DNA from: Candidatus Oscillochloris fontis
GTDB taxonomy: Bacteria > Chloroflexota > Chloroflexia > Chloroflexales > Chloroflexaceae
Direction of reading: 5' to 3'
Assembly: GCF_004138135.1 (NCBI RefSeq)
Contig: NZ_RYFD01000003.1
Span: forward strand, 1 to 64,000
DNA: 64,000 bases
The notes below the pieces were generated by a model that saw only the letters and a program-made list of their open reading frames with translations, ran no database searches and was not told where the DNA came from. Shown piece by piece: positions 40,236 to 41,204 of this stretch. The first letter of the stretch is position 1; each line of letters begins with the position of its first letter. Made by a program: the position numbers and the translations under genes.

Positions 40236-40391
40236 GTAGGGGCGCGACACGCCCCTATAGGGAGGGGGTTCGGGGGAGGCTTCGCCTCCCCCGAAGATCT
40301 TTATTTTGTTGTGTTTTGGCGGCTGCGCCGCCAAAACACAACAAAAAACTAGGATTTGGGGCGTAGCCCCAAGGACTTTGCGCATGCCCTG
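40236..40391. repeat. family A hairpin repeat, copy A4
   Basis: Contains a GTAGGGGCG..CGCCCCTA hairpin, a GGGGGAGGC..GCCTCCCCC hairpin, a 20-bp stem TTTTGTTGTGTTTTGGCGGC with a TGC loop (40304-40346), a GGGGCGTAGCCCC hairpin, and the end motif CTTTGCGCATGCCC. It lies between greA and lysS. Confidence 0.85.
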
Positions 40392-40415: not shown

Positions 40416-40898
40416 CTACTTCACCTTAATAATAGTGAGCTTCATGACGCCTGATGGAGTCTGCACCGTCACCTTATTGCGGGCACGCTTACCAAGCAAC
40501 GCGGCCCCAATCGGCGACTCATTGGAGATACGGCCCTGACGCGGGTTTGCCTCGGCACTACCCACAATCGTCCACGTCTCTTCTTCGTTATCATCCTCAA
40601 GGCGCACCGTCACTGAAGAACCAACGCGAACTTCACCATTACCATGGTATTCTTCGTCAATCAGTTCAGCGCGCGAGAGAATATGCTTCACCTCACGAAT
40701 ACGGCCTTCGAGGAGCGCCTGAGCCTTCTTCGCGTCCTCGTATTCGCCACTTTCGGAAATATCGCCTAGCTCTTTAGCTGCCGCAATCCGTTCGGCAATA
40801 TGCTTACGCTCAACCGTAGTTAATTCTTCCAACTCGGCTTCAAGCTTTGCACGGCCCTCACGAGTCAGGTATGTTGGCTTGTCTGTCATCGTCGTCAA
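40416..40898 (-). CDS. greA: transcription elongation factor GreA
   Basis: 160 residues. The N-terminal coiled coil (YLTREGRAKLEAELEEL..ISESGEYEDAKKAQALLEGRI) carries the acidic tip GDISESGEYE that enters the RNA polymerase secondary channel to stimulate transcript cleavage. The C-terminal FKBP-like domain has SPIGAALLGKRARN. An in-frame ATG three codons later (MTDKPTYLT) is an alternative start. A strong promoter and a leader terminator precede the gene. Confidence 0.97.
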   Translation of the reverse strand: MTTMTDKPTYLTREGRAKLEAELEELTTVERKHIAERIAAAKELGDISESGEYEDAKKAQALLEGRIREVKHILSRAELIDEEYHGNGEVRVGSSVTVRLEDDNEEETWTIVGSAEANPRQGRISNESPIGAALLGKRARNKVTVQTPSGVMKLTIIKVK

Positions 40899-40965
40899 TG
40901 CCTTCTGCTGTGGGTCGCCAAGGGGAGCTACAGCGTGGGAGAGCCGGGTGGCCCTGCTCCCAGGG

Positions 40966-41004
40966 CGATAGAAAAAAGAAGAACTGAGAGCGAGACTCTC
41001 AGTT
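40966..41004 (-). terminator. leader terminator / attenuator upstream of greA
   Basis: On the minus strand, a perfect 9-bp stem AACTGAGAG/CTCTCAGTT with a 5-base loop (40982-41004) is followed by CTTCTTTTTTCTATC, a classic intrinsic terminator. It lies between the greA promoter and the greA start. Transcripts could end here as a leader RNA of about 80 nt. Confidence 0.7.
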
Positions 41005-41059
41005 AGGGCGTGGGTCTCAGACTACATCGCCTGCATAACATAGACCCCCGTCGGGGGCG

Positions 41060-41088
41060 ATTATACGAGAGAATGGCTGGTTTGTAAA
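41060..41088 (-). promoter_or_regulatory. greA promoter
   Basis: On the minus strand, TTTACA (41083-41088), 17 bases, then a perfect TATAAT (41060-41065). Transcription would start near 41053 with a CCCCCGACGGGGG hairpin at the very 5' end of the leader. Confidence 0.75.
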
Positions 41089-41104
41089 GCTCCCCCAAAC
41101 AAAC

Positions 41105-41133
41105 TTGTGCGCCCCTACAGAATTGGGTACAAT
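41105..41133 (+). promoter_or_regulatory. promoter for the VanW gene
   Basis: TTGTGC (41105-41110), 17 bases, TACAAT (41128-41133). It diverges from the greA promoter. A 9-bp inverted repeat ACCGCCGCG/CGCGGCGGT (41147-41178) lies in the leader. Confidence 0.55.
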
Positions 41134-41204
41134 GTCTAGCAGAAGAACCGCCGCGCCGCCGAGTACCCACGCGGCGGTGGTACGTCCCAGCAGACAGCCT
41201 CGTT

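Follow-up and report, generated by a model that had tools for sequence, protein, structure and literature searches.

On the minus strand of the window (the whole 64,000-nucleotide stretch of DNA analysed here) lies greA, which encodes a protein of 157 amino acids with the Pfam domains PF01272 and PF03449. GreA of this green non-sulfur bacterium, which is closest to Oscillochloris, is 41% identical to E. coli GreA, and the acidic tip residues D and E, which are needed for cleavage, are kept and are the same in both proteins. The gene upstream of greA is divergent and VanW-like, and among the relatives tested it stands beside greA in this genome only. Downstream, lysS adjoins greA in most relatives whose contig extends that far. 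The greA leader contains a promoter, a predicted terminator and a structured element adjacent to the ribosome-binding site (RBS), arranged as follows:

41083..41088, minus strand: -35 hexamer TTTACA of the greA promoter (window sequence and comparison across the order)
41060..41065, minus strand: -10 hexamer TATAAT (window sequence and leader comparison)
41009..41050, minus strand: 5' domain stem-loop, outer helix GGGUCU/AGACCC and inner helix CAGGC/GUCUG (predicted fold, with counterparts in relatives)
40982..41004, minus strand: leader terminator hairpin AACUGAGAG-UCUCG-CUCUCAGUU (sequence and pairing conserved upstream of greA)
40971..40980, minus strand: U-rich tail UUCUUUUUUC, the expected 3' end of a short RNA (sequence; U-rich tail kept in relatives)
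40907..40968, minus strand: RBS-adjacent element (compensatory changes; the same fold predicted for the window)
40968-40964/40919-40915, minus strand: helix P0 of this element (compensatory changes beyond shuffles)
40960-40956/40928-40924, minus strand: helix P1 (compensatory changes beyond shuffles)
40955-40950/40945-40940, minus strand: helix P2 (compensatory changes beyond shuffles)
40934-40930/40911-40907, minus strand: possible pseudoknot of the element (pairing not beyond shuffles)
40901..40904, minus strand: likely (inferred) Shine-Dalgarno AAGG, a few nt past the possible pseudoknot strand
40416..40889, minus strand: greA coding sequence

The promoter that the sequence-only reading placed ahead of greA, TTTACA-17-TATAAT on the minus strand, is present at 41088-41060 and agrees with the sigma-70 consensus at 11 of 12 positions, with a 17-nt spacer. 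It is the best of 6 promoter-like sites within 6 kb, where 2.3 are expected at a threshold of at least 9/12. Among the 56 leaders of the order with a readable greA promoter, the -35/-10 spacing is 17 in 54, and the -35 box reads TTTACA in 39, TAGACA or TGGACA in 13 and TTGACA in none; the one-base departure from TTGACA seems itself to be kept. Judging from the position of the -10 box, transcription is expected to start at the purines 41052/41051. A CCCCCGACGGGGG hairpin, which the same reading took as the 5' part of the system, does exist at 41057-41045 (minus strand), probably straddling the transcription start. With +1 expected at 41052/41051 its left arm would be mostly untranscribed, and no such hairpin is seen in the greA leaders of relatives, so that it drops out of the proposed system.

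A conserved divergent promoter on the plus strand (TTGACG-17-TAGGAT or TACGAT) lies just upstream of the greA -35 box in a number of relatives (L002-L006, L017-L032). The corresponding part of the window (41089-41200) is without it; there, different sequence precedes the -35 box and the VanW-like gene takes the promoter's place. This synteny break ends at the greA promoter, which indicates that the unit of promoter, leader and greA survived a rearrangement just upstream.

The perfect 9-bp hairpin and U-rich tail that had been read ahead of the greA start are confirmed at 41004-40972. In the DNA, stem AACTGAGAG (41004-40996), loop TCTCG (40995-40991) and stem CTCTCAGTT (40990-40982) are followed on the 3' side by a C and then by TTCTTTTTTC at 40980-40971, and about 82 nt separate the end of the U-tract from the greA ATG (40889). 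A short RNA would be expected to run from about 41052 to 40972, roughly 80 nt. Terminator-like patterns turn up here no less often than chance predicts (6 found against 4.4 expected), so the significance of this one comes from its conservation, the pattern count alone giving none. The hairpin was also considered as a 3' terminator of the upstream gene and rejected, since that neighbour is divergent and unique to this genome's neighbourhood.

How widely is the hairpin kept? A greA gene was located in 40 of the 41 family genomes (Chloroflexaceae) and in 76 of 82 of the order, and 69 leaders were examined. The sequence-only reading had staked its proposal on conservation of the hairpin in relatives, and AACUGAGAG-loop-CUCUCAGUU is found upstream of greA in 65 of these 69 leaders, unlike the remainder of the leader, which can scarcely be aligned between families. 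The stem of the order is CUGAGAG/CUCUCAG with few changes, closed by a loop of 2 to 6 nt, and 98.4% of its cells are paired, compared with 38-54% once one side is shifted by one position. Three pairs have changed on both sides, a figure reached by 1 of 500 shuffles, and four other covariation measures are matched by 38 to 90 of 500; covariation is limited here because the stem hardly varies. The exact 14-base core occurs in 30 of the 41 family genomes, and in 28 of these 30 the greA leader is its only site. A relaxed hairpin pattern matches 59 of the 82 genomes of the order, and only one of its sites there is not at greA; in the other orders of the class it matches 1 of 76 genomes, at a place other than greA.

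A near-perfect palindrome just downstream of a promoter could in principle serve as an operator at which a dimeric repressor of greA binds the DNA, a hardly credible reading for this inverted repeat. The loop that varies within the order, and more widely in other classes, and the G-U pairs common in the stem speak against it, as does the T-tract, which in every case lies on the strand of greA. Among the leaders of the order, those of Roseiflexus and its relatives (L045-L049, L070) have the hairpin 240-284 nt ahead of greA; their U-tracts are weaker, and another long stretch of pairing (GCCGC..GCGGC) precedes the start codon. Several leader tails in this group are weak terminators (UCGUUUCAUUU).

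Beyond the order, a covariance model (R1) trained on the order's leaders alone was run on 201 Chloroflexota genomes. Outside the class, 12 genomes from scattered lineages have a match directly upstream of greA on the correct strand, and about 15 other matches, nearly all weaker, fall at places other than greA and look like ordinary terminators. Both features to be looked for in a GraL-type leader attenuator, conservation and placement tied to greA, were thus found in the searches of the order and the phylum. In all four genomes of one sister order the hairpin at greA has a longer stem, GGAACUGAGGG..CCCUCAGUU, which differs from that of the order by a compensatory change. There and in most of the other-class matches, the hairpin begins only some 10 to 30 nt past the -10 box, which would make the RNA some 40-50 nt long, close in size to the GraL RNAs of the E. 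coli greA leader. The CUGAG hairpin was found at the best greA of 0 of 30 other-class genomes, a hand-picked set that happened to omit the genomes with R1 matches. Many genomes of other classes are without the hairpin, which is therefore not essential to greA across the phylum. On a tree of 88 GreA proteins (a rough bootstrap with many weak forks), the hairpin label needs 8 changes compared with 26.7 for shuffled labels, a strong clustering that points to inheritance along particular lineages of GreA. The trait may have arisen once, long ago, with later losses, or may have been gained a few times.

In the window the RNA is predicted to fold into a 5' stem-loop (41050-41009), with a z of -2.7 jointly with the terminator. 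A two-helix 5' domain of this kind can be drawn in 16 leaders (the window and 15 other Chloroflexaceae), with some compensatory changes; it is distributed through the family apart from Chloroflexus and a few others, and was not recognised in leaders outside the Chloroflexaceae. A paired domain directly before the terminator could be the sensor of a metabolite- or protein-sensing attenuator, competing with the terminator, and greA leaders elsewhere have been drawn with antiterminators (PMC2965389). However, the pre-terminator segment pairs with the terminator arms no better than shuffled sequence (3.8 vs 4.2 shuffled and 4.4 vs 4.8 bp, n=57). This argues against an antiterminator of the classic kind, a candidate rejected because its helices are no longer than those formed with shuffled sequence. 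In other classes there is hardly any room for one between promoter and hairpin. The terminator is kept outside the family whereas the 5' domain is not seen there, and the leader has no Rfam match at gathering score, only noise at E >= 6, so that a known riboswitch, T-box or other Rfam family was discarded as well. A sensing attenuator is accordingly very improbable.

A second structured region lies between the terminator and the ATG, where three nested helices are common to 21 Chloroflexaceae sequences; AGGC(A) is nearly invariant in the greA leaders of the family. Compensatory cells number 17 in P0 (0 of 2000 shuffles as high), 3 in P1 (1 of 2000) and 12 in P2 (0 of 2000), in a count over structure-aware segments assigned by hand, which favours the structure. 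An automatic column count agrees, with 15 compensatory cells and 0 of 500 shuffles as high. The pseudoknot GCUGU/ACAGC just ahead of the Shine-Dalgarno can form in most sequences; since 179 of 2000 shuffles score equally well, it is kept as possible only. A model of the element matched the greA leader in each Chloroflexaceae genome that has the element, and its search of the genomes found no other gene set with it. A weaker second match (E 1e-4) lies away from greA in a Viridilinea genome (G039:C35:22054-22141). Like RBS-proximal regulatory RNAs (translational riboswitches, r-protein operators), the element has a covarying stem-loop and, immediately ahead of the Shine-Dalgarno, a possible pseudoknot; unlike them it is tied to greA alone and has no Rfam match, and its pseudoknot lacks statistical support. 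It probably adds translational control in the Chloroflexaceae.

The sequence-only reading had likened this leader to E. coli GraL. The layout bears this out: a strong promoter, a short 5' segment, an intrinsic terminator in the greA 5' UTR before the start codon, and a long stretch from terminator to ATG. The short RNA expected here is similar in size to the GraL RNAs (37-59 nt; PMC6829880). The likeness does not extend to sequence, as the E. coli terminator, GACCUGGG..CCCGGGUC, is unrelated to AACUGAGAG..CUCUCAGUU, and homology between them was rejected when the E. coli leader, examined directly, proved to have no ACUGAG stem. There are two promoters at E. coli greA and one is seen here, and the RBS-adjacent element is not described for GraL in the passages of PMC6829880 that were consulted. 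Of the suggestion that the arrangement is convergent or ancient, ancient holds within Chloroflexota only; across phyla the layout is alike and the terminator sequence is not.

Attenuators in greA and rnk leaders have been described in Proteobacteria, bacilli and Clostridia, every cluster showing a clear antiterminator (Naville and Gautheret 2010, PMC2965389), and their gene family ranked seventh for attenuation (PMC2965389). The leader described here shares with these a premature terminator upstream of greA and differs from them in that no antiterminator was found. Chloroflexota are not mentioned in the text of PMC2965389, and a literature search found no Chloroflexota greA leaders, transcript data or transcript ends. 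New with respect to known greA leaders are the phylum, the sequence-conserved terminator, the lack of a detectable antiterminator and, in one family, the extra covarying element beside the RBS.

The strong conservation of promoter and terminator supports a real regulatory leader. The likeliest reading, with a probability of roughly 0.6, is a greA leader attenuator working like E. coli GraL, most likely through negative feedback by GreA. Transcription would start near 41052, and most polymerases would halt in the U-tract that follows the ACUGAGAG hairpin, setting free an RNA about 80 nt long, and a minority would read through into greA mRNA (possibly greA-lysS). The frequency of read-through by RNA polymerase would set greA output. 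A scan of the window sequence found no promoter-like site between the terminator and the greA ATG. With the upstream gene divergent as well, expression of greA should depend on read-through. Because no antiterminator was found, control would most likely be exerted through the behaviour of RNA polymerase at the hairpin and U-tract. The most probable input is GreA, the gene's own product: its RNA cleavage raises termination at the E. coli leader, and a negative feedback loop would result. In E. coli, catalytically active GreA is needed for autoregulation and GraL levels follow GreA (PMC6829880); feedback by GreA on its own leader here is suggested by the analogy in layout.

The terminator could instead be fixed, ending a constant share of transcripts so that greA expression stays low despite a strong promoter, without any signal as input. 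The near-consensus promoter with a terminator directly after it, the failure to find an antiterminator and the absence of a recognised sensor domain outside the Chloroflexaceae would all fit. But a weaker promoter would achieve the same output, a constant terminator needs no such long-lasting conservation of stem sequence, and two extra structured domains suggest regulation, which makes this dosage-setting role unlikely. Is the short RNA then the main product, a trans-acting sRNA whose hairpin or 5' segment pairs with targets, with greA made by read-through or from another promoter? E. coli GraL acts in trans too (PMC6829880), and the hairpin sequence is conserved beyond the needs of termination. 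Against this, the part of the short RNA outside the hairpin varies from family to family and in other classes is a very short stretch, the hairpin remains tied to greA, and the window offers no promoter-like site between hairpin and gene, so that a principal role in trans is quite improbable.

GraL-like attenuation by the leader, the preferred reading, leaves one feature to be accounted for: the conservation of the hairpin in sequence, beyond its pairing, is not explained by simple termination. Could the stem itself be what is read? In E. coli the sequence of the GraL hairpin itself matters (PMC6829880). A tentative and on balance doubtful extension is that the stem ACUGAG/CUCAGU is read by RNA polymerase with GreA (or another factor), GreA sensing its own level without an antiterminator, and that in the Chloroflexaceae the second, RBS-adjacent RNA element adds translational feedback. 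If true, RNA alone would regulate greA at two consecutive steps, and this form of control would be old within Chloroflexota. Even for E. coli there is no settled account of how GreA regulates its own gene: the authors of PMC6829880 describe the loop as hard to classify and look for a missing factor. The Chloroflexota leader provides a comparative handle, its conservation showing which bases matter and supplying natural variants, and the RBS-adjacent element is a covarying RNA without an Rfam match that is tied to one gene.

Other inverted repeats occur around the gene. A long perfect palindrome, TTTTGTTGTGTTTTGGCGGC..GCCGCCAAAACACAACAAAA, lies between greA and lysS (window 40300-40350), L014 has a similar one near greA, and the hairpin CGGGGGAGGC..GCCTCCCCCG is shared by L001 and L016. 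These palindromes of the greA region suggest a mobile palindromic repeat or bidirectional terminators.
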